A stretch of 64,000 nucleotides of DNA from Phycisphaerae bacterium (GTDB lineage: Bacteria > Planctomycetota > Phycisphaerae > Phycisphaerales > SM1A02). The translations under genes and the position numbers were made by a program. Location of the stretch: assembly GCA_002716385.1 (NCBI GenBank), contig PBAX01000022.1:248001-312000 (forward strand). Reading direction: 5' to 3'. Under the pieces are notes generated by a model, which had not been told where the DNA came from, did not search any database, and worked only from the letters and a program-made list of their open reading frames with translations. Of the stretch, positions 1 to 35,740 are shown one piece after another (the stretch's first letter is position 1; every line of letters begins with the position of its first letter).

Positions 1-872
1 AGGCCTGCGAGCCACCACATCGGGGATTCATTGATCCTTGAGCCATGTGACCATGAGCTGAAGGAGGCCGCCAGAACAACCGGCAGGACCAGCTTCAATC
101 GGGTCGAGATATCGGATCTGAAGAAGATGCAGATGATCTGAAGACCCAGATAGCAGCCAGCTATGGAGGAACCGATGACGAGACCCTTGGCATAGAAAAA
201 TGGATACAGGAAAAGGACAACTGCACCGAGACCGGCATGCAGTATGCTCTTCTTGTGGTGTGCCGCAATCAGGAAGTACACGAGCAGCATCGCTATCCAA
301 AAGGAAAAGAGATCTGTGTCGAAGTAGCCTGCCATCGATCTTTCGTAGTAGTTGAATGCGACCGCACCGAGCATCGCCGATGTGAAGCCCCAGAGGGAAC
401 TTCCGAACACTCTGCCAAGAAGAACGAGTGGAACCGCCATCAGGCTGCCGAGAAAGATTGGTGCCCAAAGTAGAAGAGTCGGCGTATCCAAGGATGTCGT
501 CTTCATTAAAGCCCAGGAAAGAACATGCAGGGCTCCTTGGGAATTGAACAACGGATACATGTTGGGATTGTCCCCGTGTATGCCGTCGACATGCTGCTCA
601 ATCATTGCGCCATGAGTGAAGGCGTCGTGTGTGGTTGGCTGAACCACACCCTCCCATTTGAATTGGGGGACCGTTTCAGCCCAATCGATGTAGGCATAGC
701 GAATATACGAGGTCGCCCCCCAGGCGATGATCACAAGCAGGAGTGTCGCCCATGGACCATTGAAGCAATCCCGGGGTATGCTCAGCCATGAACGCCATCC
801 AATTTCACATCCGCTGGAATCCGATGGCAAATCGCTAGCCTTGCGATCCTGATTTCCATCGGAGGAAGACAT
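1..872 (-). CDS. pglB: PglB/STT3-family oligosaccharyltransferase, N-terminal part (cut by window edge)
   Basis: These are the first 290 residues of a GT-C membrane oligosaccharyltransferase; the rest lies beyond position 1. Family members transfer a glycan from a polyprenyl-diphosphate carrier to asparagine in N-X-S/T sequons on the periplasmic side. Visible landmarks are a first membrane segment at about 40-60, D83 in the loop motif HDAFTHG (matching PglB D56), and R178 followed by D185-T-D187 in ERSMAGYFDTDL, with the same R-to-D spacing as PglB R147/D154/D156. Residues about 133-200 line up with Campylobacter PglB from memory. The ATG follows directly on the TGA of the aminotransferase gene, so the two should be co-transcribed. 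The WWD signature and second half cannot be seen. An ArnT-like GT-C protein was considered, but the GYFDTD motif argues for STT3/PglB. The sugar and acceptors are unknown. Confidence 0.85.
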   Translation of the reverse strand, partial: MSSSDGNQDRKASDLPSDSSGCEIGWRSWLSIPRDCFNGPWATLLLVIIAWGATSYIRYAYIDWAETVPQFKWEGVVQPTTHDAFTHGAMIEQHVDGIHGDNPNMYPLFNSQGALHVLSWALMKTTSLDTPTLLLWAPIFLGSLMAVPLVLLGRVFGSSLWGFTSAMLGAVAFNYYERSMAGYFDTDLFSFWIAMLLVYFLIAAHHKKSILHAGLGAVVLFLYPFFYAKGLVIGSSIAGCYLGLQIICIFFRSDISTRLKLVLPVVLAASFSSWSHGSRINESPMWWLAG

Positions 873-2069
873 TCAGACGGTCCCCACTGTCGCATGGGAT
901 CGAACGTAGCTGACGATCGTTTCCACTACATGCTGTTTCTGTTCCATGCTCAACTCGGGATAGACCGGAATGGCGATTGTCTCGCGAGCCGCCAGTTCGG
1001 TCGCCGGTAGCGGCCCAGTCTCCTCCTTCAATCCACTGAAGCATTTCTGGCAATGCAATGGAACTGGATAGTAGACGTCATGACCGATTCGGTTCTCGAC
1101 CAGATGTGCTCTCAGGTCGTCTCTGATGGATTCCGGCACCCGGATGACGTACTGGTTGTAGATCTGATACGCGGGAGACTCGACAGCCGATGGCCTCAAG
1201 AGCGGCAGATCGGTGTCGTTGAAACTCATGCCTGACCGGCCTGCACCAGCCTCGTCGAACATCCGGTCATAGTCCGATGCATTGGTACGCCGGCCTTCAC
1301 TCCAGCTATCCAGGTGCTTCAGTTTGATATGGAGTATGGCCGCCTGCAGCGCATCGAGCCTTGAATTCAAGCCGACCTCATCGTGGTAGTACTTGGGTTC
1401 CATTCCATGATTTCGAAGCCGACGCATTCGATCCGCGATATCGGAATCGTTGGTCGTAACCATACCGCCATCCCCGAAGCCGCCGAGGTTCTTAGACGGG
1501 AAGAAGCTGAAGCATCCAAACCTGCCTCTTGAGCCGACTCGAGCACCGGTGACATCACGACAACCAATCCCCTGGGCCGCATCCTCGATCAATGGAACGT
1601 TGTTCTCGCAGGCCAGTGTCATAAGACCGTCGAGATCGACCGCCTGTCCAAACAGGTGGACCGGCATGATCGCCTTCAGATTCTTGCATCGCCCGATCGC
1701 CTCGGAAACCGTTTCGACCGTGCAGTTGTAGGTGGCTGGATCGATATCGCAGAAGATCGGCTTGGCGCCCAGTCGCCAGATGGAGCCAGCTGTGGCAAAG
1801 AACGTGTAGCTGGGACAGATGACCTCGTCACCTGGACCGATGTCGGAGGCCATCAACGCCAGAAGCAGTGAATCGGATCCACTGGCACAGCCAACGGCAT
1901 GTTGAGCGCCGCAATATTCGGCGACAGCCTGTTCGAAGTCCGCAACCTTGGGTCCCATGATGAACCATTGACTTTCGACGACGTCTCGAAGAATGGGCTC
2001 TATTTCATCTCTGATCGTGTCGTACTGAGCACGCAGATCGAGAAGTGGTACGTTGATTTCCTCGGGCAT
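873..2069 (-). CDS. DegT/DnrJ/EryC1-family PLP-dependent sugar aminotransferase
   Basis: This 398-residue protein belongs to the family that transaminates nucleotide-linked keto-sugars (WecE, PglE and similar) in the cytoplasm. The PLP-binding lysine is K193 in FFPSKNLGGFGDGG. The cofactor motif IEDAAQGIG is at about 161-169, and GSDSLLLAL at about 64-72 binds the phosphate. The length is normal for the family. The ATG has an AAGGA eight bases upstream. Its TGA abuts the ATG of the PglB-like gene, which suggests that it makes an amino sugar used in the transferred glycan. The exact substrate cannot be read from the sequence. A second member of the family in this window, ArnB, is clearly different, so this is not a duplicate of the Ara4N pathway. 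Confidence 0.93.
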   Translation of the reverse strand: MPEEINVPLLDLRAQYDTIRDEIEPILRDVVESQWFIMGPKVADFEQAVAEYCGAQHAVGCASGSDSLLLALMASDIGPGDEVICPSYTFFATAGSIWRLGAKPIFCDIDPATYNCTVETVSEAIGRCKNLKAIMPVHLFGQAVDLDGLMTLACENNVPLIEDAAQGIGCRDVTGARVGSRGRFGCFSFFPSKNLGGFGDGGMVTTNDSDIADRMRRLRNHGMEPKYYHDEVGLNSRLDALQAAILHIKLKHLDSWSEGRRTNASDYDRMFDEAGAGRSGMSFNDTDLPLLRPSAVESPAYQIYNQYVIRVPESIRDDLRAHLVENRIGHDVYYPVPLHCQKCFSGLKEETGPLPATELAARETIAIPVYPELSMEQKQHVVETIVSYVRSHATVGTV

Positions 2070-2258: not shown

Positions 2259-5069
2259 TCAATCGCAGTCATCGCAAGTCGAACCAGCACCGAGCCACTC
2301 TGTGCCTGGGAAGATGCAATCAGCCTCGGCAAGATCGTCGACACAAACTCCCGTGTTCTCATTGCAGCATGCGCCAGTCGGAGCCGCCGGGCAGGGATCG
2401 CAGCTCTCCTGCTCCAGAAGCCCGTCGATCAGAAGGTCCCAAACGGACTGGATGACTTCAGGAGGCGCTGTCTGGAACTCCGGAGGCCATCCATCTGGAT
2501 CATTTCTGTCCAGTTGGCAGAGATAATCACACACATTGACGCCATTTGGAACCGTGATGCCATTCGAACCGGGAAGACCATCATCGCTACCACCACCGTC
2601 GACGCCCCCTCCGAAGTCCGGAATATCATCAGGAAGGCCGTCGGCCGCCCCGCCGGCGGCATTGCTGGAGCCTCCGGTTGAGTTGCTATTGGATCCTTCG
2701 CCCAGATTGGCTGGATACCCCTCGAAGAAGCTGAATCCCGTTGCGGTCAGTAGCCCGTCTTCACCCATGGACCATGCGCCGGAAATTCGGTAGGCCAACG
2801 GTCCAAGTACAGGTGCTGCGGGTGCCGCTTCCTCGTCATCGGTGGCATTCGAATTCTCATTGTCGACAAGCTCGTCAGGTTCCTGATCTGCTTCGATACC
2901 CTCTTCGTCATCTCTCAATGACGGCCGGGCCTCTTCATCCGCCAAGGCCGGTGGGCCGCTTTCTTCAGTCTGGGCGGAGGATGCCTGTTCCGATCTGGCC
3001 ATTTCCCAATTCACCACTTGGCCACCATCATTCCAGATGATGTTGAGGTGACGATCCGTGGTGTAGGTTCCAATGCCGCCCAGTCTGGCGTCAATGGTGA
3101 CTTCCTGGCCGTTGTAGGTCAGATAGTCCCCCTCAAGGAAATTGCTCTGACCGATCATCCAGAACGCGATTCGATCGTATTCATCATTCGAGTGCCAGAG
3201 AAGATCTCCGGTCTGACCATCGCCATTCATGTCGCCTGTACCGACGATTTCCCAGTTTGCACCCGGAATCAGAAGTTCTCCAGTTGCCCATGTGAAATCT
3301 GCCGCGGTTTCCAGAACGTGGGGCGCCTGCAAGGACATTGTCCACGTACCGGTCGTACCGTCGTTTCGGTTCTGCCAGAGAATCGCATCGCGCCCGAATC
3401 GCTGTGTATTCGTCACAAGCTCCCAACCAATATCCGTAACCGGCATGGAGGCCTGAGCAAGTGTGATCCAATCCCCCGATCCCGGTGTGATCCCCCAGAC
3501 CCATGTGGATCCGGTAACGCTGTCCCACCAGAAGATCTCGGATTTACCATCATCATCAAGGTCCGCTACCGCAGGCACGAGGGTGTTCTCGACCAGAGGC
3601 AGATCCTTGGTCGTATCGATATGGCCATTCTTGAGAATCCAGATATTGGTTGAACCAATTGCTGGATTCCACCAGAAGAGATCCGGATTTTCGTCGCCAT
3701 TGAAATCGCCCGGCATGGCCTTCCATCCCGTACCTGGCAGAAGAATAGATTCCTCGCTTTCAGCAAAGACCATCTTCTTCGGGCCTCCTGTGAAGGCTTC
3801 GGTCGATTCAAGTGTGATGGTTGCACCGCTACCCTGACCATCGGGATCCGAAAGCGTGAATGTCGGTATTGAGTCGTATCCGCTACCGGGATTGAAGTCG
3901 ATTATCTCGCTGATTGGACCCCGTCTGCTCCAGCTGACTCTGAATGAAGCCTCGGAGCTGTTGTGGTTCGGCGCGTAGACGAGCCCTGTGCTCCCGTCGA
4001 AGTTCTCGAGATCCGCAAGCACGGCAGCATCCGTCAGATCGACGGTTTCATCATGAAAGAGCGGATCCGACGTGAAACCCTTGGTCGTGGAATCAAGGGA
4101 GACATGCATGATCTCGCCGCCTCTGTAGAAGCGGATCACGGGAGTCTGCGTGAATTCGATTTCATTCAAACCATTATTGTTGTCCGTGTAGTAGATGGTC
4201 GGCTGGGGGAATCCGAATGATTCCCACCACACATCTCCCAATCCATTGGTCTTGTTCTGATTGAAGTAGTAGAGATTTGGATCGGGGTTCTTTTCGGCTG
4301 GAATGGACTGACTAGAGGTGTGAAGCCAGTTCTCGGAGTTGTTGGGCACGTCGCCTGCTCTGAGAATGCTGGTGATCCTCCCGCTTCCATCCGTCAACGC
4401 GAGGATGTTTCCCATGTCGGGATCAGTGAGTGGATTGAAGCTCTGGACATTGATGCGAACCGCGCTGTTCGGTGGCCCACCGAGACCCGCGCTCTCGATT
4501 CTGAAGGCGGTAAACCAGCTTCGATTCGAATTGGCGGGATCATCTCCTGGAAATGGAGATACAAAGGCCGTGCCAGTCGCTCCCACGATGTCTGAAAAAC
4601 CTGTTCCATTCGCATTCCTGAGAGACGCAGCCATGCGGAATGAGCGGACGCCATGGTCGTCCAACGCTACGAGATTCCTGTCATACCCGCTTCCGGTAGC
4701 GGCAAGACGCAGATTGGAGATTTCGCCATTCACCTCGTAGGAAGCCGAAGCACCTGTGCCACTGGTTCCATTATTGTTGAAGATGATGTTGCCAGCTGAG
4801 TAATCGACGCCCTCATTGCCAGCCTCGAGTACCAAATCGTCTAGTGTGAAGTCGGACTCGATCAGATCGAGACCTGTCTCGGTCATGTAATGAAGTGTGA
4901 TTTCACCAGTCGAGGCATCATGCCTGATGATGTCGGCATGGCTATCAGGCGCGCAGTTGGCGGTGCCGCATCCCAGGTCGACAACAGAGACGGCAACGGA
5001 ATCGCCCAAGGCTGAAGCGCCTAGAAGAAGGCTGGTTGCCATGCATCCGATCAGGTTCAATCTGTTCAT
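2259..5069 (-). CDS. Secreted protein with FG-GAP-like repeats, acidic segment and Cys-rich 'TGACC' tail (paralogue 1 of 3)
   Basis: The 936-residue protein opens with a signal peptide (MNRLNLIGCMATSLLLGASALG, probable cleavage after about residue 22). The N-terminal domain starts with a 'DLG...PDSHADII' segment shared with the next two proteins. FG-GAP/VCBS-like calcium-loop repeats of the type GDFNGDENPDLFWW occur near 452-470, 497-520 and 608-640. A 'GSGYDSIPTF' element sits at about 390-400. About residues 690-760 are rich in Asp and Glu, followed by a Gly/Ser/Asn-rich stretch and a cysteine-rich tail (TGACC, then CxxCD at the end) at about 895-936. The ATG has GAGG six bases upstream. 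The gene is monocistronic by its own terminator. The function is unknown. FG-GAP-like repeats usually form propellers that bind ligands or partners, so a surface or matrix role is likely. Confidence 0.9.
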   Translation of the reverse strand: MNRLNLIGCMATSLLLGASALGDSVAVSVVDLGCGTANCAPDSHADIIRHDASTGEITLHYMTETGLDLIESDFTLDDLVLEAGNEGVDYSAGNIIFNNNGTSGTGASASYEVNGEISNLRLAATGSGYDRNLVALDDHGVRSFRMAASLRNANGTGFSDIVGATGTAFVSPFPGDDPANSNRSWFTAFRIESAGLGGPPNSAVRINVQSFNPLTDPDMGNILALTDGSGRITSILRAGDVPNNSENWLHTSSQSIPAEKNPDPNLYYFNQNKTNGLGDVWWESFGFPQPTIYYTDNNNGLNEIEFTQTPVIRFYRGGEIMHVSLDSTTKGFTSDPLFHDETVDLTDAAVLADLENFDGSTGLVYAPNHNSSEASFRVSWSRRGPISEIIDFNPGSGYDSIPTFTLSDPDGQGSGATITLESTEAFTGGPKKMVFAESEESILLPGTGWKAMPGDFNGDENPDLFWWNPAIGSTNIWILKNGHIDTTKDLPLVENTLVPAVADLDDDGKSEIFWWDSVTGSTWVWGITPGSGDWITLAQASMPVTDIGWELVTNTQRFGRDAILWQNRNDGTTGTWTMSLQAPHVLETAADFTWATGELLIPGANWEIVGTGDMNGDGQTGDLLWHSNDEYDRIAFWMIGQSNFLEGDYLTYNGQEVTIDARLGGIGTYTTDRHLNIIWNDGGQVVNWEMARSEQASSAQTEESGPPALADEEARPSLRDDEEGIEADQEPDELVDNENSNATDDEEAAPAAPVLGPLAYRISGAWSMGEDGLLTATGFSFFEGYPANLGEGSNSNSTGGSSNAAGGAADGLPDDIPDFGGGVDGGGSDDGLPGSNGITVPNGVNVCDYLCQLDRNDPDGWPPEFQTAPPEVIQSVWDLLIDGLLEQESCDPCPAAPTGACCNENTGVCVDDLAEADCIFPGTEWLGAGSTCDDCD

Positions 5070-5372: not shown

Positions 5373-8138
5373 CTATCGGAGGGAATCAACCCGGAATGGG
5401 CGAGAGGACTTGCCGGAGCCTTCAAGGCTGGAGCCCTCCATTCTCAACCGGTCAATATCTCGATCAAGCTGCCAGGTGAACCAGGGGCCGCCTCCGGGCA
5501 GTGACCAGCCGATCGTTGGGAACCACTGTGTTCTGGTGGCCCTTGTATCTGTGCTTGTCCAGTAGACATCCTGCTGGGCGTAGTGGCCTATGCCCACGGG
5601 CCTGCAATATCGAATATCGCCCGAGATGATGCTGCCATCCTGAGTGACGAACCCGGCCCCACCATTTGGAGCGGAACCGTCAATCTGGGAGCCGGATCCA
5701 TCCATCAGCCAGATGGCGGATCGGCCAGAGTCTCGGTCGAAGAGGAGAAGGTCCCTGAAGGCATTGCTGCCATCTGACTTCGGATGCCCCGCCAGACTTC
5801 CCGCACCGACGATTTCCCAGGAGGATTTTAATCCGATGATTCGATCTCCCTGGGAGTCTCGAAGATAGTCGGGATCCGACAGCCAATCCGAAGACGGTGA
5901 ATCGGGTTTGATCGACAGCTTCCACTGGGCGAGACTGCCTTCTTCAGGATCGATCCAATACACGCGATCGCCCTGATTGCGAGCGGCGTTGTTCGTGCAG
6001 GACATCGACCACCCCAGATCCATGACAGTTGGAAGAAAGGCCGATTCAGGACGAATCCAATCGGTGGAATCCGAAGATGACGAGTCAACGATCCAAACTG
6101 CATTCTGACCGGTCAACTCATTACGCCAGAGAACACAGCAACCCGGGCCACTCAAGCCCATCTTGCCAATGCCGCCAATTGCCCATGAGGTGTTCAGGCT
6201 CGGCAAGGCGGTGGCCTGCAACTGGCCCTTCTGGGCAAGGACCGCAGCGTCAGGACCAAGATTGATCAGGTAGGAATCGCCGGCATCGGGATCATGAAGA
6301 AGCAGATCCGCATGGCCGTCGCTGTTGAAGTCTCCATCCCCGTACACGTTCCAGTTGGAAAGATCATTCGCAAATTCCAACACATCGCCACCAATTATGC
6401 GTCGACCGTCATCACCGGGAACAGGGGTCAGTCGAGCACCTGATCCCGTGGCGTTCTCCGGCAGTTCAATGGAAGGCAGGCGATAGTAGCCGGAGCCACT
6501 TTGATGGATGATCGATCCCACGATCCGTCCTTGAGCAGGCTCACGGGCCTCGAGAATGGGCTCCGTCTTCGCCAGCTTGACCGGGCCGGATCCAGATGCA
6601 CGCTTTATTTCGAACGATGGCGCAGACGTCACGTCGTAGCCCTCGTTTGAATCATTGCGATTCGATATCGGGGGCAAGGCGATCAAGCTTCCGAACAACT
6701 GGATTCCAGTGCAGCTGAAGCCGCGGCCGTTGCCGACCGGATGCAATGTCCAGCCCGATGCATCCTCGGCCATGGCAGGATTGTCCTCCAGAACCCATCC
6801 GTATTGATAGGTCTCCGCACCATTCACCCCGACTCTTTCTTGAGTCATGTTGCCTGCCATGGGAATGGCAGAGCCCTTGGCATTGACGTAGATACCACCC
6901 TTGGCATCCGTTTCATATCGAATCTTCCAGCCGTTCACCCGCAAACCGTTGACATCCCGTATCTGGAAATAGCCGGACTTGTAACCCGATCCGGACGTCG
7001 GCTCGGTGCTGTAGGTCTCTGATTCGTCGACGTCCGCATCGTCATCCTGCGTGGAAACATCCTCGATCAAAGAGAGCGATTCAATCTCCTGATCATGCCG
7101 AACCTCCCCTTGGTTGTTCTGCAGTGACTTGTCTGACAGACGCTCGAATTCTCCAGAATGCTCCACGCCCATGGCATCGGCTTCGATCAGAAGATTCGCG
7201 ATCTGTCCGGGTGTGTCCGCAGCCCAGGGGAGCGACCAACCCGACTCCATGTTGCCTGTGGCAGGTGTATGGGCCAGGAAATTACGCCAATTGCCTGGCC
7301 TGTAAGCGAATGGGTTTAGAACGTCCCCTGTGATCTCCATCTCAGTGACGGTGTCTTCAATCACATTGGCCGCCAGCGGTGAATATCGTGAACTTGTCAG
7401 ATCTCCACCTGGTATGAAGCCAAGCGAGCCAATCCCTTCGCCGAATATCCTCACGACTAGTCGGGACTGTGTTGCTCCAGTCAGCGATGAAGGTATGGCA
7501 TAACCTGATCCGGGATGGACAATCTGAAGATCCTGATCCGCCGAACTCAGACCATGTTGCTGCAAATCGATCAGTGGATTCTGCCATGGATGATCCACGG
7601 GATAATAGGACCAGACGCCTGCTCGACCATCCAGTACAGCGGAGGCAGTGAAGCCGTGGCCTTCGGTGGAGGCCCCCTCTACATTGAGTGGCAGGGTCCA
7701 CATTCCGACTTTCATAGGGTTGGCAGGATCATCCTCAAAGGACTCACCTAGCAGCTCCACGCGAAAATCATCGCTGAGACGGCTCACAGGGATGTCGCAG
7801 ACCGTCATGCCCGAATCCGCGAGTGATCCACGTCCGTATCCGATGCCGCCATCAGCAATGTGTATATCGATAATCTGGCCGGAACGATCGTTCCGATCCA
7901 GGCCATCGGGTCCCAGATACTCCACGATCAGCCGTTGCTGGACATCATCCCAGATGATTCGATCGGCAAACCCATCAGGTGCTGGGGAAGAGGGGCTACC
8001 CAGATCGCTCAAGCAAAGGAGATGATCTGCCGCCTGAACTGGAACGCCAACACAGCCAATCGACCACACCGTTGTGATCATGGCCGATGCGACCAGTCGA
8101 GATACCGGCCACGTCAGATTCCTTGGAGTTCGCTTCAA
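5373..8138 (-). CDS. Secreted protein with FG-GAP-like repeats (paralogue 2 of 3)
   Basis: Read from a TTG start this is 921 residues. That start gives a classical signal peptide (MKRTPRNLTW..., hydrophobic core about 14-32, cleavage near VQA-A), and GGAGAG lies upstream. The longest ATG frame starts at 8219 and would put 27 non-signal residues in front. The N-terminus (CLSDLGS...PDGFADRIIW) matches the other two paralogues. An FG-GAP-like loop GDFNSDGHADLLL lies at about 598-611, and further degenerate repeats (DPEEGSLAQW, DRDSGRSAIWLM) follow. A 'GSGYYRLPSIELP' element resembles the one in paralogue 1. It has few N-X-S/T sequons and lacks the acidic segment and cysteine tail. The function is unknown; it is probably a surface or secreted structural or binding protein. 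Confidence 0.88.
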   Translation of the reverse strand: MKRTPRNLTWPVSRLVASAMITTVWSIGCVGVPVQAADHLLCLSDLGSPSSPAPDGFADRIIWDDVQQRLIVEYLGPDGLDRNDRSGQIIDIHIADGGIGYGRGSLADSGMTVCDIPVSRLSDDFRVELLGESFEDDPANPMKVGMWTLPLNVEGASTEGHGFTASAVLDGRAGVWSYYPVDHPWQNPLIDLQQHGLSSADQDLQIVHPGSGYAIPSSLTGATQSRLVVRIFGEGIGSLGFIPGGDLTSSRYSPLAANVIEDTVTEMEITGDVLNPFAYRPGNWRNFLAHTPATGNMESGWSLPWAADTPGQIANLLIEADAMGVEHSGEFERLSDKSLQNNQGEVRHDQEIESLSLIEDVSTQDDDADVDESETYSTEPTSGSGYKSGYFQIRDVNGLRVNGWKIRYETDAKGGIYVNAKGSAIPMAGNMTQERVGVNGAETYQYGWVLEDNPAMAEDASGWTLHPVGNGRGFSCTGIQLFGSLIALPPISNRNDSNEGYDVTSAPSFEIKRASGSGPVKLAKTEPILEAREPAQGRIVGSIIHQSGSGYYRLPSIELPENATGSGARLTPVPGDDGRRIIGGDVLEFANDLSNWNVYGDGDFNSDGHADLLLHDPDAGDSYLINLGPDAAVLAQKGQLQATALPSLNTSWAIGGIGKMGLSGPGCCVLWRNELTGQNAVWIVDSSSSDSTDWIRPESAFLPTVMDLGWSMSCTNNAARNQGDRVYWIDPEEGSLAQWKLSIKPDSPSSDWLSDPDYLRDSQGDRIIGLKSSWEIVGAGSLAGHPKSDGSNAFRDLLLFDRDSGRSAIWLMDGSGSQIDGSAPNGGAGFVTQDGSIISGDIRYCRPVGIGHYAQQDVYWTSTDTRATRTQWFPTIGWSLPGGGPWFTWQLDRDIDRLRMEGSSLEGSGKSSRPFRVDSLR

Positions 8139-8143
8139 AGTCG

Positions 8144-8149
8144 CTCTCC
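8144..8149 (-). promoter_or_regulatory. Ribosome-binding site GGAGAG supporting a TTG start at 8138
   Basis: GGAG lies seven bases before an in-frame TTG whose product begins with a proper signal peptide. The upstream ATGs (8219, 8195) have no comparable site. Confidence 0.55.
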
Positions 8150-8315
8150 AGACAAGTATCTGCTCGGCCTTCAAACGAACGGATGTCTCACACATCAGGA
8201 AGGTCGGCAACCCTTGCATGCGCTCGCATGCAGTTTCCGATCATAGCATGGCAACCAGTTAAGTCTCACGTGCAAAGATGCCATAAACCGAATTTGATGT
8301 GGAAACACACCGAGC

Positions 8316-8388: not shown

Positions 8389-10944
8389 TCAGCGAGTGGT
8401 TGCTGCCGAGACAGTGTAAGGAGCGACACAGAGGCCGTTTCCTCGAGCCGAAGCTGCTGCTGTGTAGTCGATGAGATCGAGGTTGCGATCCATCTTCCAA
8501 GTCGCAGCGTTGTAGCCATTCGTCCAGTTCATGCATGCGAACTGCTGCTGACGGAAGCCCGCACCTGGAGTCGATGCTGGATTCGTCGTGTAGATGGCAG
8601 CGACGTTGTAGAGACCAACGCCAGCCCATGCATCCGACTGGATAGTCGTGCTGCCGAGGTACGAGGTCAGGCCACGACCGCCACCGGCTGCATCGCCAGG
8701 AAGCGTAGTGTCGATAGCCTTGCTGGTGCTGTCCATCAGCCAGATGGCTGTCTGACCATTATCACCACACCAGACGAGGTCTCGCTGGATGTTGTCGTCA
8801 GCAGTTGGACGACCAGCCATGTTGGCTGAAGCAACGAGCTTCCAACCATCGGAACCTGGGAGCAGGATATCTGAACCACTGAGCGTGATCATGCCGTATC
8901 CGGATCCAAGCGATGGAGTGCTTCCGTTGGCATTGATGGTGACTGGCCAGTAGGCGATCTCACCCGAAGCTGAGTTGTGCCAGTAAACGGAGTTACCGGA
9001 GTTCAGAGTTCCGTTGTTGGTGCAACGAGCTGACCAGTCAGCTGCGTCTACAACGGTGTCAAGTTCTGCTGAACCGACAATCCATGTGCTGGCGGCACCG
9101 GTGGTGTTGACCCACCATGCAGCCGTCTGGCCTGTTTCGGTGTTGTACCAGAACATTCCGCAACCAGTGATGTCGGAGTCGAATCCGCCAAGACCAACGA
9201 GCTCCCATGCGCCACCTGGCTTTGGAAGTTCGCCGAAGCTGATTACTTCGCCGCTTGAGCCCATGTTCCAGATGTAGCAACCGTACTCGACGGAATCCCA
9301 TACCAGATCACTGTAGCCATCGCCGTTGAAGTCACCATTCGAGAAGCAGTCGAACATTGGGGTGACTGCGTCGAAGGCGAGATCGGCACCATCAACTGTG
9401 ACGGTACGCAGGCCGACTGAACCCAGAGTTGCTGCGAGCTTGCCGTTTACACCGGTATCGCCAGCTGCAGTCGTGACTGCAGGTGCCGCCACGTACGACT
9501 GGCCACCGTTCCTGACGGAGCCATCGATGATGGTACCTGAGTGAGGTGCGGACATGGTGTAAGCCCACTCTGACGTTGGAACAACACCGGTACCGTTGCG
9601 AGTAATGGTGAGTCGCGGAGTACCCGTGGTGTCAAACGATGCGTTCGTGCACATGGACTGCATGTTGATGACCTGTCCATACAGGTGGATCGCATTGCAG
9701 ACGAAGCCAGTACCGTCACCCTGAGGAACAACGGTGTAACCAGCCGTGTTGGACAGGTTCGCGTTGTTACGAGTGATGGACCAACCGTTGGTGTTGTTCC
9801 AGTTTCGGTTGATCGTGGTCTGGTCTGGTGCACCGGTAGTGGTGTTGACATTACCGTTCCAGGCACCCTTGTAACCGGTATAGATACGGCCTTCGGAATC
9901 GACTTCATAGGCGATCTCGATACCGCTGACCAGATTGCCATCTGCGTCGTAGATCATGAAGTTGCCGGCGGTGTAGCCGATACCGGAAGTTGCGTTTCTA
10001 TTCGCTGACGTGCTGTCGTTGTTTGCAAACCCGTTGCCGACGATCGCGAGGTTGGCGACCTGACCAGCCTGAGTTGCAGCACCAGCCACGGCGTTGCCGT
10101 TGGCGGCTGCTGGAGTCGCACCAAGATAGAGCCGGTAGTTGCCGTACTCATCAGTGCCCTTAGGACCTGTGGTCGCATTGTCGTTGACGATACGCAGGGT
10201 GCTGTTTCTTGCGAAACCTGCTGCACTTGGTGACAACTGACCAGCACTGTAGGTATCGATGATGCCATTGGCACCTGTAACAACGAAGCTGTCTGTCAGG
10301 AAGCCGAAGCTGCCCAAGCTGCCGCCAGTGGTCGAAATAGTCACGCTGAGCGAGTTCTGTGCGTTGACGTTACCGGCATATGTCGCATTGGTTGCACCTG
10401 GCATGTAGCCGGTGGAACCGTTCGTGATCTCGAAGTCCTGCTGACGGGTATCAGCATTGGAATTTCCGTCGAAGTAGACGCCGCCTGCAGGACCATCGAT
10501 CTGATACGAACCCTGTGCGTTTGCACCACCGGAACCGGTGTTGTCAAAGACGGCTGGAGCCCACCAACCAGCACCAGAGGTACGACCGTCGCTCTGGAAA
10601 ATCGTACCGTTGGTGGTCGTTCCGCCAGTGCCGAGCGAGGTGCAGTTCTGGCCGTAGCCTGATCCGCCGTTGGTGTTGACTGTGATGTCAGTCACCTGTC
10701 CGGAAGTGTCCTGAATGTTCAGGCCGTTGTTTGCGAGGTAGTTGAACACGACGCCATTGTTGGTCCCATTGGTGCCAGTTACCCATACCTGGTCAGAGTT
10801 GCCATCAGGCGTTGCTGACTGATATGTACCCATGTCGCCGACCGAAATCAGCGTGTTGTAGTCGCCAGCCATTGCCGTTGTGGCAAGTGCGCCGACGAGT
10901 CCACCGGCAATGATTGTGCCAGTCTTTGTGAATGCAGATCTCAT
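8389..10944 (-). CDS. Asn/Gly/Thr-rich secreted protein with FG-GAP-like repeats (paralogue 3 of 3)
   Basis: I start this at the ATG at 10944 (851 residues). It has GGAGAG upstream and begins with a signal peptide ending in TTAMA-GD; the open frame continues upstream to 11106 without such features. The mature N-terminus (ISVGDMGTYQSATPDGNSDQVW) matches paralogues 1 and 2. An FG-GAP-like loop, GDFNGDGYSDLVW, is at about 534-547, with later 'FWYNTETGQTAAWWV' and 'CGDNGQTAIWLM' repeat-like segments. It is unusually rich in N-X-S/T: I counted about 18 sequons by eye, against about 8 and 3 in the other two. None that I saw has an acidic residue at -2. It could be an abundant surface protein and a substrate for the nearby PglB-like enzyme, but that is inference. 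Confidence 0.9.
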   Translation of the reverse strand: MRSAFTKTGTIIAGGLVGALATTAMAGDYNTLISVGDMGTYQSATPDGNSDQVWVTGTNGTNNGVVFNYLANNGLNIQDTSGQVTDITVNTNGGSGYGQNCTSLGTGGTTTNGTIFQSDGRTSGAGWWAPAVFDNTGSGGANAQGSYQIDGPAGGVYFDGNSNADTRQQDFEITNGSTGYMPGATNATYAGNVNAQNSLSVTISTTGGSLGSFGFLTDSFVVTGANGIIDTYSAGQLSPSAAGFARNSTLRIVNDNATTGPKGTDEYGNYRLYLGATPAAANGNAVAGAATQAGQVANLAIVGNGFANNDSTSANRNATSGIGYTAGNFMIYDADGNLVSGIEIAYEVDSEGRIYTGYKGAWNGNVNTTTGAPDQTTINRNWNNTNGWSITRNNANLSNTAGYTVVPQGDGTGFVCNAIHLYGQVINMQSMCTNASFDTTGTPRLTITRNGTGVVPTSEWAYTMSAPHSGTIIDGSVRNGGQSYVAAPAVTTAAGDTGVNGKLAATLGSVGLRTVTVDGADLAFDAVTPMFDCFSNGDFNGDGYSDLVWDSVEYGCYIWNMGSSGEVISFGELPKPGGAWELVGLGGFDSDITGCGMFWYNTETGQTAAWWVNTTGAASTWIVGSAELDTVVDAADWSARCTNNGTLNSGNSVYWHNSASGEIAYWPVTINANGSTPSLGSGYGMITLSGSDILLPGSDGWKLVASANMAGRPTADDNIQRDLVWCGDNGQTAIWLMDSTSKAIDTTLPGDAAGGGRGLTSYLGSTTIQSDAWAGVGLYNVAAIYTTNPASTPGAGFRQQQFACMNWTNGYNAATWKMDRNLDLIDYTAAASARGNGLCVAPYTVSAATTR

Positions 10945-11382
10945 TTGAAATCTCTCCATTGATTCAATGCCGTTGTGTCTCACACACTTTGGCAACCCAT
11001 CTAGATCTTGCCGCTGGCACACATCACCACGCAACAAGGGAATATCAAACTGGTCCGAGACGTACCGAAGGATTCCGATCGGCATAACGACCCTAAAACC
11101 ATGCAAAAACTTCTGACCGGTTCCCCGGCTATTGCCGCGAATTGTAAGGAACGTGACGCCCCTGTCAAACCACAGGAGCCCTTGGAGTAGGTTTGGTCCG
11201 AGAACAAATCAGCTTTGGAAGGGCAGAAAACGCTGCCATGGACCTCCTAGAGCCACTCAAGGCGATTTCAGCAGGAATCAGGAGATCGCTCTGAAGCAGA
11301 TATGGGCGTCAAACAAGCGTAAAAGTCTTGTTTAAACAGGCTTAGAGACGCATGGGCCAGAAATTCTATTTTTTTGAAATTC
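10945..11382. other. Intergenic region upstream of the Asn-rich secreted protein
   Basis: These 438 bases contain the promoter and leader of the gene starting at 10944 (minus) and the 3' end of the methyltransferase gene stopping at 11383. An inverted repeat (see 11311-11333) and an A/T-rich direct repeat GAAATTCT are present near the methyltransferase end. The open frame in phase with the secreted protein from 11106 lacks a ribosome-binding site and is probably untranslated leader. I found no RNA gene and no sure promoter hexamers. Confidence 0.55.
11311..11333 (-). terminator. Possible weak terminator after the methyltransferase gene
   Basis: The inverted repeat AAACAAG/CTTGTTT has a nine-base spacer and lies about 50 bases after the stop at 11383. 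The stem is A/T-rich and the trailing T-run is only three bases, so this is a weak call. Confidence 0.3.
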
Positions 11383-12247: not shown

Positions 12248-12934
12248 CTAGGCTCTGGCCAGAATGGCTACGGCGGCCGGAAAGGCGACGGCATTGAGCT
12301 GGACCGACTCGAATCCGGCCTCCAGGGCCTGACACCACGCATCCGCTCCGTATTCGGTCTGCACCCGCCAGTCGTCCGATTGGGTATCCGATTCCCCATG
12401 AAAGGAAGCCGGCATGCCGTCTCGCCGCCGGCTCAGACGGCCGATGACGATCGGCACCGTGAAGCAACAGGCACCGCCTGGCTTGAGGACCCGTCGACAT
12501 TCCTTTAGGGCCTGCACGGGGTCCGGGACATGCTCGAGCGTATCGCTGTGGACAACTAGATCGAAGGTGTCGCTTGGATACGGCATCGCCTGCATGTCCA
12601 CCTCCGGGTAGTGGCCGAACACTCGACCAGGCATCTTGGCCAGCAGTGGCGACAGCATCCCAGCCTCGTTCAACTCAAGCACGCGGGTCTTCCTGTAGCG
12701 GCGATGATTCAAACCCGGGGAAAGCCATTCATCCATTCCGAGTTCCTGACGAATGGCCTCTGCCAGTGCGATGGAACGAAGATTCGAACCACAGTCCGTG
12801 CAGCATTCGCCCTGCTGACGATCCACATAGCCGCGCTCGTCTTCCGTAAGCCCCCAGGCGTTCACCAATTCGTCCCAGAGAACCGGTTCGAATGTGAATG
12901 AGGTTCCGCCGCAGACTGAACAGATGAGTGTCAT
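12248..12934 (-). CDS. Zinc-ribbon methyltransferase-like protein with degenerate SAM motif
   Basis: This 228-residue protein has an N-terminal four-cysteine module (C5, C8, C45, C48, spacing CxxC...CxxC) and a C-terminal Methyltransf_11-type domain. The later motifs are clear: FDLVVHSDTLEHVPDP at about 124-139 and RVLKPGGACCFTVP at about 148-161. The glycine-rich motif I is replaced by VLELNEAGMLSPLL (85-98). The same architecture recurs at the C-terminus of the fusion protein encoded at 16378-18189. The ATG overlaps the TGA of the exporter ATPase gene by four bases, so it is translationally coupled to polysaccharide export. It may methylate a glycan terminus, a common export signal in Wzm/Wzt systems. 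Whether it binds SAM normally is open. Confidence 0.87.
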   Translation of the reverse strand: MTLICSVCGGTSFTFEPVLWDELVNAWGLTEDERGYVDRQQGECCTDCGSNLRSIALAEAIRQELGMDEWLSPGLNHRRYRKTRVLELNEAGMLSPLLAKMPGRVFGHYPEVDMQAMPYPSDTFDLVVHSDTLEHVPDPVQALKECRRVLKPGGACCFTVPIVIGRLSRRRDGMPASFHGESDTQSDDWRVQTEYGADAWCQALEAGFESVQLNAVAFPAAVAILARA

Positions 12935-14289
12935 GATTGCTCCGAGCAGGCTGATGATGCATGAAGCGTATCAAGCGTGATCGAGAGCATGGGAAGGCCA
13001 ACCAGCCCAAGCGAAACGTGGGAACCATGAATCCGGAAGGTCATGGCGGATTCGATCCAGTGCCGAGGAATACTCTCCTCCCGCGGCCCATCCGCGATCG
13101 CAACCCCCACGGAATACTCTCCGACAGGAAGCCATGGCATCTGGAATCGGAACGCCGCCCGGAAACCATCGCCCGATCCGATCGGTTCTGCTGCCTTGTG
13201 GCTACCGAACCCGGTGTTGTCGGCGAACAGCACCTGCCCGAGACGGTCCTGCACATAGAAACCCACGATCGGCTCATCGATCGTCCGTGAAACCGTCCCG
13301 GTCACTTCCAGCTCGACGATCTCACCCCCATTGAGAAGATCCAGAGGACTGCCTGAATCATCGAGGAAACGGACCGAAGAGATTTCCGCACCACCTTCAC
13401 CAAAGCATGCTGACTTTGGATCGAACAGCGGCTTGTCGGTCACGCTTGAATTCGCCAGATCACGCAATGAAGAGGCTCTCGGATCCTCGATGGCTTCATC
13501 CATCTTTCTGGAACTGACCTCGAAGTGGCCCGTCGAACCTTCCGCTCGCTGCTTGAGACTCGCCTCGTATTCCAGAACGACTTCCTTGGAGGGGCCGCTC
13601 CTCATCAGACGTCCCTTGTCCAACCAGATGGCACGATCGCAGAGTGACAGCACGGCCGCCGTGTCGTGTGACACGAAGAACAGGGTCCCATGCTCCTTGA
13701 AGCGGCGGATCTCCCGCATGCATTTCTGCACGAACGCCCCATCACCCACCGCCAGAATCTCATCGACCACCAGAATGTCGGCATCCACGTTGATGGCAAC
13801 GGAAAAGGCGAGCCTTGCATACATGCCGCTCGAGTAGCGCTTGACCGGTTGGTCGATGAATCCCTCGGGCAAATCGGCGAAATCGATGATTCGCTCTATG
13901 CGTTCCTGTATTTCTCGACGGCTTATGCCCAGAATGGATGCGGCGAGTCGCACGTTCTCACGACCTGTGAACTCCGGTGCGAATCCGGCTCCCAGTTCGA
14001 GCAGCGGCGCGATCCGGCCCGTTGTCTCGATCCAGCCCCGTGTCGGCGAGGTCGTTCCACAAAGCAACTGTAGAAATGTGGACTTGCCCGATCCGTTTCG
14101 ACCAATGACAGCGAATGATTCCCCTCGCTTGACCTCGATATCCATCTCCTGAAGCGCCCAGTGTTCGCGATAGAAACGATGGCCGAGTCCGAATGGCATC
14201 GATTGCAGCAGACGATGGTGTCCGCGATCGAACAGGCGGTAGGCCTTCGCGAGACCTCTGGCCGTGATGGCGACCTGATCAGATGGCAT
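12931..14289 (-). CDS. Polysaccharide ABC exporter ATP-binding protein, Wzt-like with C-terminal glycan-binding domain
   Basis: The 452 residues comprise an ATPase domain (about 1-240) and a Wzt-type C-terminal domain (about 300-440). Walker A is GRNGSGKST (63-71), the signature is YSSGM (152-156), Walker B is DILVVDE (171-177) and the H-loop is H208. 'LLELGAGFAPEFTGREN' at about 97-112 is typical of the TagH/KpsT/Wzt branch. In Wzt the extra C-terminal domain recognises the modified end of the finished polymer, which fits the methyltransferases that follow. It pairs with the permease gene, whose 3' end it overlaps by 11 bases, and shares a four-base ATGA overlap with the zinc-ribbon methyltransferase gene. 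It exports an undecaprenyl-linked glycan. A PglK-like role in flipping an oligosaccharide for PglB is possible, but less likely given the Wzt-like tail. Confidence 0.95.
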   Translation of the reverse strand: MPSDQVAITARGLAKAYRLFDRGHHRLLQSMPFGLGHRFYREHWALQEMDIEVKRGESFAVIGRNGSGKSTFLQLLCGTTSPTRGWIETTGRIAPLLELGAGFAPEFTGRENVRLAASILGISRREIQERIERIIDFADLPEGFIDQPVKRYSSGMYARLAFSVAINVDADILVVDEILAVGDGAFVQKCMREIRRFKEHGTLFFVSHDTAAVLSLCDRAIWLDKGRLMRSGPSKEVVLEYEASLKQRAEGSTGHFEVSSRKMDEAIEDPRASSLRDLANSSVTDKPLFDPKSACFGEGGAEISSVRFLDDSGSPLDLLNGGEIVELEVTGTVSRTIDEPIVGFYVQDRLGQVLFADNTGFGSHKAAEPIGSGDGFRAAFRFQMPWLPVGEYSVGVAIADGPREESIPRHWIESAMTFRIHGSHVSLGLVGLPMLSITLDTLHASSACSEQS

Positions 14290-15163
14290 CCGCGAATCCC
14301 CTTCTGGTAGCCATGAACCAGATCCAGCCGATCCAGGCGATGGCGAGCGAAGCGCCCAGATAGATCAGCCAGATCCCGTAGTCTGGGGCGGTACCCATGA
14401 AGACGGAAGATCTGAGCATTTCAATGACAGTCGTCAGTGGATTGATGTACAGCCATGATTGCCATGGTTCTGGAACAACCGACAACGGGTAGAAGATCGG
14501 ACAGGTGAAGAGGGTCACCGTCAGGATCAGTCCGACGACCTGCTGGGTGTCCTGGACATAGAGTCCGATCGACATCAGTATCCACGAGAATCCGAAGACC
14601 ATGATGATCACCGGAAGAACGATCACGGGCACGAGCAGGATCGTTACCGGTGGTGTCCCGATGACGAACGCATAGAAGATTGCGAAGACCAGTGAGGCGA
14701 CCAGCGCGTTGAATATCGCCATGATCATCGTCGACCACGGGAGAATCTCGAGTGGGAAGACGACCTTCTTGACGAAGGTGATATTGGAACGCAGCACACT
14801 CGGCGCCCGGCCGACGCAATCACTGAACAAGTTGAACACGATCAGACCGGCGAAGAGTTCCAGTGCGAAATTCGACATGTTCATGCCGGCTGCCGCATCC
14901 TCGATTCCCATGCGCGGTGCCTTGGCCTGGAAGACCATTCCGAAGACGAAGGTATAGACGGCAAGCAGAACCAGTGGCTGCATGATCGCCCAGAACAATC
15001 CAAGAACCGATCCCCGATATCGAACCTCGATCTCTCTACGTCCAAGACGGGAGATGAGATCCCGATGCTGCCAGGGTGAACGAAGGATGTCGACCGGTGA
15101 CAACCTCCATCTTGGGGAATCCGCGGAATGTCTGGTTGTCACCTGAATGGTAGAACTGCCCAT
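14279..15163 (-). CDS. Polysaccharide ABC exporter permease (Wzm/TagG type, ABC-2 family)
   Basis: The 294-residue integral membrane protein has about six predicted helices. The family's N-terminal amphipathic motif 'LISRLGRREIEVRYRGSVLGLFW' type is at about 37-60, and the C-terminal 'YINPLTTVIEMLRSSVF' is characteristic of O-antigen and teichoic-acid ABC-2 permeases. It forms the membrane channel with the ATPase encoded next. The ATG is preceded by AGGTGA. It is the first gene of a minus-strand operon (permease, ATPase, zinc-ribbon methyltransferase, perhaps CmoB-like methyltransferase). The 145 bases to the divergent rfbB gene must hold promoters for both directions. Confidence 0.95.
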   Translation of the reverse strand: MGSSTIQVTTRHSADSPRWRLSPVDILRSPWQHRDLISRLGRREIEVRYRGSVLGLFWAIMQPLVLLAVYTFVFGMVFQAKAPRMGIEDAAAGMNMSNFALELFAGLIVFNLFSDCVGRAPSVLRSNITFVKKVVFPLEILPWSTMIMAIFNALVASLVFAIFYAFVIGTPPVTILLVPVIVLPVIIMVFGFSWILMSIGLYVQDTQQVVGLILTVTLFTCPIFYPLSVVPEPWQSWLYINPLTTVIEMLRSSVFMGTAPDYGIWLIYLGASLAIAWIGWIWFMATRRGFADAI

Positions 15164-16377: not shown

Positions 16378-18189
16378 ATGGAACGACCCGGTGCACAAGT
16401 CAGCCTGATCATTCCCGTCTTTCGAGATGCGGACATGGTCCTCGAGTGCCTTGCCAGCATCACGGATGATCCGGGTTGCGACGGCATCGACATCGTCGTC
16501 GTCGATGATGCCAGTGGCGATGACACGCCCGACAGAATCGAGTCGGCCGGCCTGCCTGGCGTTCGGCTGATCCGAAGAGCGGTCAACGGAGGTTTCGCCC
16601 GAGCCTGCTCGGAAGGTTGGCGAAATCGAGATGTCAACAGGACTATTGTGGGCGTGCTCAATGCGGACACCGTCGTGGAACCGGGCTGGCTGAAACCCTG
16701 TCTGGATGTCCTTCTTTCGGATGGCGGATGCGGATGCGTTGTTCCATCAATCGTCGATTACCACACGCCTTCGGTACTGGACTCCGCTGGCCAGTCGTAT
16801 GCCGCCTGTGGATGGGGCTTTCGCCGAGGTCACCAGCAGCACACTGAGGATCTCGACAATCGTGAACAGATCTTCGGTCCCACCGGCTGCGCGATGCTCG
16901 CCAGAGCCGATGTTATCGAGGAATGCGGAGGACTCTTTCGAGAGGATCTCGAGTGCTACTACGAGGACACCGAGCTCGCCTTTCGTCTGCATCGCTTTGG
17001 CCATGAGACCTGGCATGTACCAGAGTCCCGCATCAGACATCGAGTGTCGGCCGCTTACGACAAGATTCCAAGACGACGAGCCTATTTCGTCAGCCGCAAC
17101 TCCACTCTTCTCTTCTGGACGGCGGTTCCTGTCCGTCTCTGGTGGTCGGCCATACCGCAACGATCGCTGCTCAGTCTGTTGTTGATGATGAAGGCACTTC
17201 GCCAGAAATGCCTGATCCCCTTCATTCGTGGACGACTTGAAGCCTGGCCGATGATCGTCAGATCCGGATCCCTGAGATCAAGAGCGGCCTCGAGTCTGTT
17301 CACGCGGAACTGGCTCGGTCAGAAGAACAGGTCCATGAAGGTCGCCTATGCGCGGACCGTTCGACGGAGAGACCGCCCGTATCCATTCAAGCTCATCGAT
17401 GACATCAAGATGGCTTGGAGCGACCCGACTCTCACGAAGCACAAGATTCGGCAGCACCTACGGCCACACTACAAAGGCAGGGGCAGATGCACCATCTGCG
17501 ACAGAAAGACCCGCTTCAAGTCAGTAAACGACTGGTACCGGGACAACCTGTTGTGCAGAAGATGCAAGAGCATCCCTCGCGAGCGTGCACTCATGAAGAC
17601 GATCGACGATCTCTATCCGGATTGGCGTGAGTCATCCCTGCACGAATCATCACCCGGAAGAAGGGGCGCGTCCGCTCGATTAGCACGCCAGTGCGCCGAC
17701 TACACGCCAAGCCAGTACGACCCTGCGATCCAGCTGGGCGAATGGGACCCGACGAGGAGATGGCGCAACGAGAATCTGGAGAAGCAGACCTTCGCGGATG
17801 AAAGCTTCGATCTGGTCATCAGTCAGGATGTCATGGAGCACGTGTTCGACATCGATTCCGCCTTCCGGGAAATCGCGAGGACCCTAAAACCGGGCGGCGC
17901 GCACATATTCACGACCCCTCTTGTGAACGGTGATTCGTCCGGAACCCGCCCTGCGGCAAGACTACTTGAGGATGGCTCCGTCGAATATCTCGAACCACCT
18001 GAATACCATGGAAATCCAATTGATGACGAGGGGTCCCTCGTCACCTGGAAGTATGGGTATGACATCGTCGACATCATCAAAGAAGCAACAGGTCTCGAGA
18101 CTTCCATAGTGCAGCTCGACGACATGGAACTGGGAATCAAGGGCGAGTATCTCGAGGTGCTCGTGACCAGGAAGCCCGCTCGAGGCTGA
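16378..18189 (+). CDS. Fusion of GT2 glycosyltransferase with zinc-ribbon methyltransferase-like domain
   Basis: This 603-residue protein has an N-terminal GT2 domain (about 1-245) with VVVDDASGDD at 41-50, NAD at 95-97 in place of the usual DxD, FGPTGCAML at about 166-174 and YEDTELAFR at about 195-203, resembling rhamnosyltransferase-like GT2 enzymes. After a helical basic linker (about 250-365) comes a four-cysteine module (C371, C374, C393, C396) and a Methyltransf_11-type domain (FDLVISQDVMEHVF at about 477-490, RTLKPGGAHIFTTP at 501-514). As in the protein at 12248-12934, the glycine-rich SAM motif is degenerate (SSLHESSPGRRG). It could add a sugar and then methylate it to cap the chain. 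It sits behind rfbB, and its stop is six bases from that of the convergent GT2 gene. Confidence 0.9.
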   Translation: MERPGAQVSLIIPVFRDADMVLECLASITDDPGCDGIDIVVVDDASGDDTPDRIESAGLPGVRLIRRAVNGGFARACSEGWRNRDVNRTIVGVLNADTVVEPGWLKPCLDVLLSDGGCGCVVPSIVDYHTPSVLDSAGQSYAACGWGFRRGHQQHTEDLDNREQIFGPTGCAMLARADVIEECGGLFREDLECYYEDTELAFRLHRFGHETWHVPESRIRHRVSAAYDKIPRRRAYFVSRNSTLLFWTAVPVRLWWSAIPQRSLLSLLLMMKALRQKCLIPFIRGRLEAWPMIVRSGSLRSRAASSLFTRNWLGQKNRSMKVAYARTVRRRDRPYPFKLIDDIKMAWSDPTLTKHKIRQHLRPHYKGRGRCTICDRKTRFKSVNDWYRDNLLCRRCKSIPRERALMKTIDDLYPDWRESSLHESSPGRRGASARLARQCADYTPSQYDPAIQLGEWDPTRRWRNENLEKQTFADESFDLVISQDVMEHVFDIDSAFREIARTLKPGGAHIFTTPLVNGDSSGTRPAARLLEDGSVEYLEPPEYHGNPIDDEGSLVTWKYGYDIVDIIKEATGLETSIVQLDDMELGIKGEYLEVLVTRKPARG

Positions 18190-20220: not shown

Positions 20221-21654
20221 ATGGTCTTCTCCTCCATCACATTCCTGTTCTTCTTTCTTCCGACAGTGGTCGTGCTGTACTACGTGACCCCAAGACCCCT
20301 GAAGAACAGTCTCCTCCTTCTGGCCAGTCTTCTCTTTTATGTCTGGGGAGCTGGCGTCTTCACATCGCTTCTGCTGATCGCGATCATCTCGAACTATGGG
20401 CTGGGATGGCTTGTGCATGCGGGAAGAGAGCGTCACTCCGTGGTGTTGAAGCATCTCGGCGTCTGCCTCTCGGTTCTGGTGAGCCTGGGCATTCTGGGCT
20501 ACTTCAAATACGCCAATTTCCTGATCGATGCCGTCAATCAGTTCGGCGGGTATTTCGGAACGGCAGAAATGGTCTGGTCGAGGATTGTCCTGCCCATCGG
20601 CATTTCGTTCTTCACCTTCCAGTCGATGAGCTATGTGATAGATGTATCTAGAGGAACCTCGAAGGCGATGCGAAATCCAATCGATTTCGCGCTCTATGTA
20701 TCGTTCTTCCCCCAGTTGATCGCTGGCCCCATCGTCCGCTTCCATGAGATAGATGGGCAGATCATCAAGCGGAACGAAAGATGGGATGACTTCTGCGAGG
20801 GAACGATCAGATTCACATGGGGCCTGGTCAAAAAGGTGGTGATTGCGGATGCCGCCGGCGCCATCGCCGTTCGCGTTTTGGACATGCCGTTCGAAGATGT
20901 CACGACAGAAGCCGCCTGGATAGGACTCTTCGCCTACACGATCCAGATCTACTTCGACTTCTCCGGATACAGCGACATGGCGATCGGTCTTGGAAGGATG
21001 TTCGGATTCAAGCTGCCGGAGAACTTCAGACGTCCCTACGCCGCTATATCCTGCACGGATTTCTGGAGACGATGGCACATCACACTCTCCGCCTGGTTCA
21101 GGGACTACGTCTATTTCCCGATGGGAGGTTCACGAGCATCCAGAGGACGGACCATCTTCAATCTCCTGTTCCTCTTCCTTCTGGTCGGCATCTGGCATGG
21201 AGCGAACTGGACGTTCGTCGTCTGGGGTGTCTACAACGGAGTCATCATGGTCATTGAGAGGATCGCCGGTTGGGCCACCGATGATCCGACATCCGTCCGA
21301 AATCCGGTTCTACAGCGAGCCGTCACCTTCATGCTGGTGATGCTTGGGTGGACGATCTTCATGTGTCCATCACTGGATCAGGCCGGTGAGTACTACGCTC
21401 GACTGTTCGATTTCAGTTTCCATGGCCTTGGTGAACTGGAACCTTGGATCGCCCCTGAGAACATGGTCCTACTGTTGATAGGTGGTCTGACACTCTTTCT
21501 TCCACATGATTTCCAGGGCGGTATCTGGATTGCCACTTCACGTTCAAGAGGTGCCATGGCAGCAAGGTTGGCGCTTGTGACATTGGCTTTGCCCTGGTCC
21601 ATACTTCTGGCGATCAGCGGCACTTTCAGTCCCTTCATCTACTTCCAATTCTGA
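20221..21654 (+). CDS. MBOAT-family O-acyltransferase (AlgI-like)
   Basis: The 477-residue multispanning membrane protein transfers acetyl (or another acyl group) across the membrane for polysaccharide O-acetylation. MBOAT landmarks are FWRRWHITLSAWFRDYVYFPMGG at about 281-303, with H286, and IWHGANWTFVVWG at about 324-336, with the invariant H326. The N-terminus 'MVFSSITFLFFFLPTVVVLYY' is typical of AlgI/DltB-like proteins. The next gene starts two bases after the stop and encodes an AlgJ/AlgX-like periplasmic partner, so the pair forms a two-component O-acetylation system. In this locus the target is probably the exported glycan, not alginate, as no alginate polymerase genes are present. 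Confidence 0.95.
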   Translation: MVFSSITFLFFFLPTVVVLYYVTPRPLKNSLLLLASLLFYVWGAGVFTSLLLIAIISNYGLGWLVHAGRERHSVVLKHLGVCLSVLVSLGILGYFKYANFLIDAVNQFGGYFGTAEMVWSRIVLPIGISFFTFQSMSYVIDVSRGTSKAMRNPIDFALYVSFFPQLIAGPIVRFHEIDGQIIKRNERWDDFCEGTIRFTWGLVKKVVIADAAGAIAVRVLDMPFEDVTTEAAWIGLFAYTIQIYFDFSGYSDMAIGLGRMFGFKLPENFRRPYAAISCTDFWRRWHITLSAWFRDYVYFPMGGSRASRGRTIFNLLFLFLLVGIWHGANWTFVVWGVYNGVIMVIERIAGWATDDPTSVRNPVLQRAVTFMLVMLGWTIFMCPSLDQAGEYYARLFDFSFHGLGELEPWIAPENMVLLLIGGLTLFLPHDFQGGIWIATSRSRGAMAARLALVTLALPWSILLAISGTFSPFIYFQF

Positions 21655-21655
21655 C

Positions 21656-35571: not shown

Positions 35572-35603
35572 TCCCGCCTCGGGTTCCACAAGTTTGATTC
35601 AAT

Positions 35604-35656: not shown

Positions 35657-35740
35657 AGACGGAGATCAGCCACGAGAACCGATATCATTCAACAGCACCG
35701 TAATCGACCACCCCTGTCGCAAACGCCTGTTGGAGTGAAC

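Follow-up and report, generated by a model that had tools for sequence, protein, structure and literature searches.

At the left edge of the 64,000-nt stretch of DNA analysed here (the window; G000:C22:248001-312000), an open frame of 290 amino acids on the minus strand (window 3-872) runs off the sequence and carries the HDAFTHG motif together with ERSMAGYFDTDL. It comprises the N-terminal 290 codons of a pglB gene (window 1-872, minus strand), most of which lies to the left of position 1, as an earlier sequence-only reading of the window had supposed. When fetched from the contig, the whole gene was found to span C22:246401-248872 (L002:10401-12872) on the minus strand and to encode 823 amino acids, with a single stop codon and no frameshift. 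The stop codon of a DegT/DnrJ/EryC1 sugar aminotransferase gene (window 873-2069, minus strand) touches the pglB start codon (TGA-ATG) in this genome, suggesting coupled translation. Three genes for paralogous exported proteins with FG-GAP-like repeats follow on the same strand, termed A (2259-5069, 936 aa), B (5373-8219, 948 aa) and C (8389-11106, 905 aa as listed, with the true start probably near 10950, at the signal peptide); the last of them is rich in Asn and Thr. This order of pglB, DegT aminotransferase and proteins A, B and C is conserved in the genus. Gene calling in G363 gave no intact DegT frame in the interval from pglB to A, and in G426 the same order holds for a single exported relative, DegT and a pair of pglB genes. 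The end of pglB adjoins a gene of the metallo-beta-lactamase fold, beyond which lies a conserved operon that, judged by its sequences, looks like a pyruvate dehydrogenase-type one. The listed contamination of the genome is 8%, but a contaminating contig is unlikely, because the contig carrying pglB measures 464 kb and shows an order of genes that the rest of the genus shares. No tRNA and no Rfam match was detected in the 64,000-nt window.

The large glycan locus that had been noted beside pglB is present. It includes a Wzm/Wzt-type polysaccharide exporter with a Wzt_C domain (window 12931-15163) and, in the same glycan region, an MBOAT/AlgX-type O-acetylation pair (20221-22798). A fusion of a glycosyltransferase with a methyltransferase (16378-18189, 603 aa) corresponds to two separate genes in G363 (L019), and a protein with tandem GT2 glycosyltransferase domains (35594-37477) is matched in a relative (L048) by a shorter protein of 304 aa. 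ArnB-, ArnC-, ArnA- and ArnD-like genes then stand in a row on the minus strand (37496-42589), followed by a PF03706 membrane protein (42618-43832). ArnA scores 1073.6 bits with model NF005998 (cut-off 777), ArnB 589 bits, slightly below its cut-off of 631, and by sequence the row suggests 4-amino-arabinose synthesis in a planctomycete.

In a phmmer search of the PDB at E<=1e-3, the 823-aa protein matched exclusively PglB chains of C. lari and C. jejuni, with C. lari PglB (3rce) aligning to residues 42-643 at E=7.5e-45. Both Pfam STT3 domains exceeded their cut-offs, namely STT3-PglB_core (PF21436; 65.6 bits, cut-off 23) and the STT3 N-terminal domain (PF02516; 47.2 bits, cut-off 24.5), so that, together with the 3rce match, chance is excluded as the source of the likeness to PglB. 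The NCBIfam PglB equivalog model NF050801 gave 193.4 bits and did not reach its cut-off of 1300; we therefore do not name the protein an equivalog of the Campylobacter enzyme, and its assignment to the STT3/PglB family is based on the Pfam, motif and predicted-fold tests.

The catalytic and metal-binding residues known from C. lari PglB, whose roles have been reviewed (PMC7226087), are without exception identical in the protein. In the alignment, D83 corresponds to D56, R178 to R147, D185 to D154 and D187 to D156, E378 to the EL5 glutamate E319 (within THKHTVKE), R390 to R331 and R434 to R375, while the WWDYG motif occupies residues 526-530 (MSWWDYGSGIWYY). The MxxI motif of C. lari reads MLPL here, with M629 aligned to M569 and L632 to I572, and is hence an MxxL; in at least one relative its counterpart is MLRI (L018). 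D83, R178, D185, D187, E378 and WWD are invariant in all 11 aligned copies from Phycisphaerales and Verrucomicrobiota, and the R331 equivalent is kept in six of the seven Phycisphaerales copies. The sequence-only reading had seen the R-to-DxD spacing of PglB in the partial frame and had pointed to the WWD signature, the EL5 glutamate and STT3/PglB profiles as the marks to look for in the complete protein; the spacing is the same as in C. lari PglB, and each of the other marks was found.

We also predicted the fold with AlphaFold2, using the 11 Phycisphaerales and Verrucomicrobiota copies as input. The model has a pLDDT of 81; residues 341-377, immediately before E378 in the EL5 region, are poorly ordered. 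Its top three Foldseek matches are the PglB structures 6gxc, 5ogl and 3rce (E 2e-33 to 7e-31; TM 0.72 by query, 0.83-0.86 by target), followed by AglB (TM 0.51) and STT3 (TM about 0.5). Since N-terminal helices are common to GT-C folds and an arn-like cluster lies in the window, one may ask whether the gene encodes another GT-C enzyme, such as ArnT, PMT or AftA, that merely resembles PglB. ArnT, however, appears at rank 28 with E 5.5e-3 and TM 0.32, set against E 2e-33 and TM 0.72 for PglB; the protein has WWDYG as well as the core domain PF21436, and phmmer returned no ArnT/PMT (GT83/GT39) match at E<=1e-3. We consequently give such an identity practically no credence. A missing WWD or a best match to ArnT, PMT or GT39 would have spoken against the original assignment, whereas the PDB matches, Pfam domains, motifs and predicted fold all point to a bacterial oligosaccharyltransferase of the PglB/STT3 type.

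A PglB profile search of the 181 genomes of the family recovered pglB in eight, comprising all six members of the genus as well as G300 and G426. In a sample of the order, 7 of 301 genomes carried it, all within this family, and in a sample of the phylum 2 of 392, both of this family and one of them the window's own; G016, which has a weak PF21436 match, was absent from the PglB-profile matches of the phylum sample. Named relatives with PglB are the marine Phycisphaerales MAGs ALOHA_ZT_39, ALOHA_ZT_35, ALOHA_ZT_37, NAT149, SP4365 and cluster2_bin.81, and five Verrucomicrobiota MAGs; the named relatives within the genus place the host in Phycisphaerales, in line with the Phycisphaerae-like genome that had been read from the sequence. 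Some of the Verrucomicrobiota homologues (L033, L035, L036, L037, L038) lie beside sugar-nucleotide genes. When a tree was built with C. lari PglB included, the copies from Phycisphaerales clustered (support 100/98) apart from those of Verrucomicrobiota and C. lari; with only one proteobacterial sequence, and that on a long branch, the deeper order is unsure.

The patchy spread over 8 of 181 family genomes could reflect a decaying, functionless gene acquired by transfer. G426 might be read in the same way, as it carries two tandem pglB genes (L022:5736-10321), in the second of which the R331 equivalent has been lost and the acceptor motif is WWDWG; alternatively, this sequence may point to a different acceptor choice of the second enzyme. 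Decay is nevertheless very improbable in our view: pglB is intact in the genus members in which a contig covers the locus, it is always accompanied by a PglC-like gene, and its active-site residues are invariant at only about 50% identity, which implies selection.

Genes that resemble a donor pathway lie on the same contig, 50-80 kb from pglB, where PglF-, PglE-, PglD-, PglC-, PglA- and PglK-like genes could be assigned by similarity. The main cluster (L067, C22:160001-180000) is located about 75-80 kb away and comprises a PglF-like gene (C22:166421-168397, minus strand; best solved match 5bju, E=1.9e-87), a PglE-like aminotransferase (168406-169611, plus strand; assigned by similarity), a PglD-like gene (169614-170237, minus strand; 4m98 at 1.9e-41, PglD 3bss at 1.5e-25), a PglC-like gene (170234-170851, minus strand; 8g1n at 6e-67 versus 6e-33 for WbaP), two PglA-like glycosyltransferases (171833-172930 and 172965-174065, both minus strand; 8dqd at 2.6e-33 versus 2e-12 for the next family) and a further GT4 (174062-175228, minus strand). 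A PglK-like flippase with a full-length match to 6hrc (8.5e-85) is encoded about 50 kb from pglB (C22:194574-196385, plus strand). Between the PglC- and PglK-like genes, C22:185897-194491 (L068:5897-14491) holds two synthase-like genes, a CMP-transferase-like, an aminotransferase-like and a dehydratase-like gene, which by their N-terminal sequences look like genes for pseudaminic or legionaminic acid synthesis. The sugar aminotransferase adjoining pglB had been taken as a sign of linkage to glycan synthesis; it does stand there, but its closest solved relatives are 7b0d, QdtB and WbpE rather than PglE, and the aminotransferase about 79 kb away, in the company of PglF-, PglD- and PglC-like genes, is by sequence the better PglE candidate.

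The pathway genes lie at a distance from pglB and could serve another glycan. A PglC-like gene is present in all eight family genomes with pglB and in 21 of the 173 without it (Fisher p 1.8e-7, a value that ignores shared ancestry). Contrasts inside single genera agree with this: of the g231 genomes recorded as having the exported family, G426 is the only one with pglB and PglC, and in g213 G300 alone has both. The PglK-like gene occurs in five of the six genus members; among the genomes with pglB, the search at the threshold used did not recover it in G426, G300 and G438, the last of which is fragmented.

Taken together, the complete gene with its motifs and predicted fold, the conservation of its position, the presence of pathway-like genes on its contig and the co-occurrence with PglC make it, in our judgement, probable that the locus encodes a single-subunit STT3/PglB oligosaccharyltransferase which, with its donor pathway, transfers a glycan to exported proteins, the adjoining FG-GAP proteins being likely acceptors. 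In such a pathway, the PglF-, PglE- and PglD-like enzymes would produce a UDP-diacetamido sugar of the bacillosamine type, which the PglC-like phosphoglycosyl transferase would place on undecaprenyl phosphate. The PglA-like and other glycosyltransferases would extend the glycan, the PglK-like ABC flippase would turn the lipid-linked product outward, and PglB, if catalytically active, would transfer it to Asn in N-X-S/T of exported proteins, among which those encoded beside pglB, and protein C above all, would be the likely acceptors.

Sequon counts favour protein C. Its orthologues contain 73 N-X-S/T motifs where 49 are expected from shuffles (z 3.9) and 36 of the reversed motif, again with 49 expected, although these sequences are homologous, so that the counts are not independent, and this was one of several tests made. 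No such excess appears in A, in B, in the exported protein of G426 or in relatives from genomes without pglB. Sequons are not conserved in A, B or C, and the sequon Asn residues of C are no better conserved than its other Asn residues. The extended D/E-X-N-X-S/T motif is not enriched in the exported class or in the C proteins, even though the R331 equivalent is present; the PglB of D. gigas retains this residue too, yet has relaxed specificity at position -2 (PMC4894442). On a larger scale, we compared about 0.89 Mb from two genomes with pglB (the 464-kb contig of the window's genome and about 428 kb of a second one) with 0.43 Mb from two genomes without it, and exported proteins showed no clear sequon excess in either. 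The earlier suggestion of general asparagine glycosylation thus finds an echo in one neighbouring exported paralogue and none across the exported proteins; protein C is the best candidate acceptor, with A and B as further candidates.

These data bear on whether the neighbourhood of pglB says anything about its acceptors. The enzyme could be a general one that modifies many envelope proteins, with the FG-GAP genes next to it by virtue of an old operon with DegT and uninformative on acceptors. A restriction of the exported proteins to genomes with pglB was indeed refuted, as they have a match in 33 of the 181 family genomes, many of them without pglB. The lack of a sequon excess in A, B and the G426 protein fits a general enzyme as well, and N-glycosylation in C. 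jejuni is described as a general system (PMC6478998). Against this stand the conservation of the gene order across the genus, the sequon excess in protein C and the absence of an excess proteome-wide. We regard a general enzyme as quite conceivable, while leaning somewhat against it.

Release of free oligosaccharides is a known side reaction of PglB. The enzyme might mostly hydrolyse lipid-linked oligosaccharide in this manner, or use a non-protein acceptor, with little protein glycosylation, which would agree with the missing proteome-wide sequon signal. The acceptor-binding WWD, E319 and R331, however, are kept and (nearly) invariant in the homologues; their retention leads one to expect a peptide acceptor, as they would otherwise not be expected to persist, and we deem this alternative improbable. 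Protein glycosylation by a PglB-type enzyme, with the FG-GAP proteins as likely acceptors, is the reading that we prefer.

Relatives without pglB differ in what they carry at the corresponding position. In G460, G496 and G514, DegT and the conserved gene that comes next are directly adjacent, and in G540 pglB is likewise absent between DegT and the dehydrogenase operon. G512, G396 and G472, of the genera g224 and g235, also lack pglB and encode a Wzy_C protein (PF04932, 472-491 aa) in the corresponding cluster (L047, L050, L051), where DegT, a UDP-sugar dehydrogenase and the exported proteins are also found and PF02719 and PglC-like genes lie close by. The family PF04932 includes both O-antigen ligases and O-oligosaccharyltransferases of the PglL type, and genes of the latter frequently neighbour those of the proteins that they modify (PMC3643930). 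In the three proteins, PF04932 was the only domain at E<=1e-4, and since the PglL-specific PglL_A domain (PF15864) was not detected, a PglL-type role is no more than a possibility, beside that of a ligase or polymerase. Nor is Wzy_C exclusive to genomes lacking pglB: distant paralogues occur in 65 of the 181 genomes, including that of the window (C5:22426-23724), so that any exchange would be confined to this cluster. It is tempting, if on balance rather unlikely, to see in the cluster a replaceable oligosaccharyltransferase slot beside the exported family, filled by PglB, by an O-linking Wzy_C-family enzyme or by none, depending on the lineage, with the PglC-initiated pathway gained or lost alongside. 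Were this true, one exported family would carry N-glycans in one genus and O-glycans in another.

Most records of bacterial N-glycosylation come from Campylobacterota, supplemented by a small number of deltaproteobacteria and Aquificae (PMC4894442). Our literature search found no report of PglB in Planctomycetota or Verrucomicrobiota, and the sole paper found on planctomycete glycoproteins concerns an anammox S-layer and its O-glycosylation (PMC5088730). Marine planctomycetes with a full set of pathway genes make it likely that the range of N-glycosylation reaches another superphylum; they also provide three exported proteins as candidates for this modification and new PglB enzymes for glycoengineering.

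Among known systems, the Desulfovibrio PglB enzymes (PMC4894442) are comparable as distant PglB homologues outside Campylobacterota, albeit from another phylum. Archaeoglobus AglB and eukaryotic STT3 belong to the same superfamily and share the logic of WWD, DxD and EL5 glutamate, but their fold is more distant (TM about 0.5), they gave no phmmer match at E<=1e-3, and the window's PglB has an MI-like motif instead of the DK motif, as well as an Arg at the -2 pocket. Neisseria PglL and other Wzy_C O-oligosaccharyltransferases differ from PglB in fold and linkage; the PF04932 protein of g224 and g235 nevertheless resembles the Neisseria case in its clustering with PglC- and PglF-like and DegT genes and an exported family, as pglL genes frequently adjoin those of their acceptors (PMC3643930). 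Closest are the PglB enzymes of C. lari and C. jejuni (3rce, 5ogl, 6gxc, 3aag). The locus of the window differs from the Campylobacter pgl locus in that pglB has the genes of exported proteins as neighbours and the pgl-like genes lie at a distance of 50-80 kb, and the proteins differ in length (823 aa compared to about 713), in MxxL for MxxI and in a longer EL5 region here, at about 21% identity in the structural alignment; alike are the single-subunit STT3-type organization, the catalytic and metal-binding residues, WWDYG, R331 and the predicted fold.
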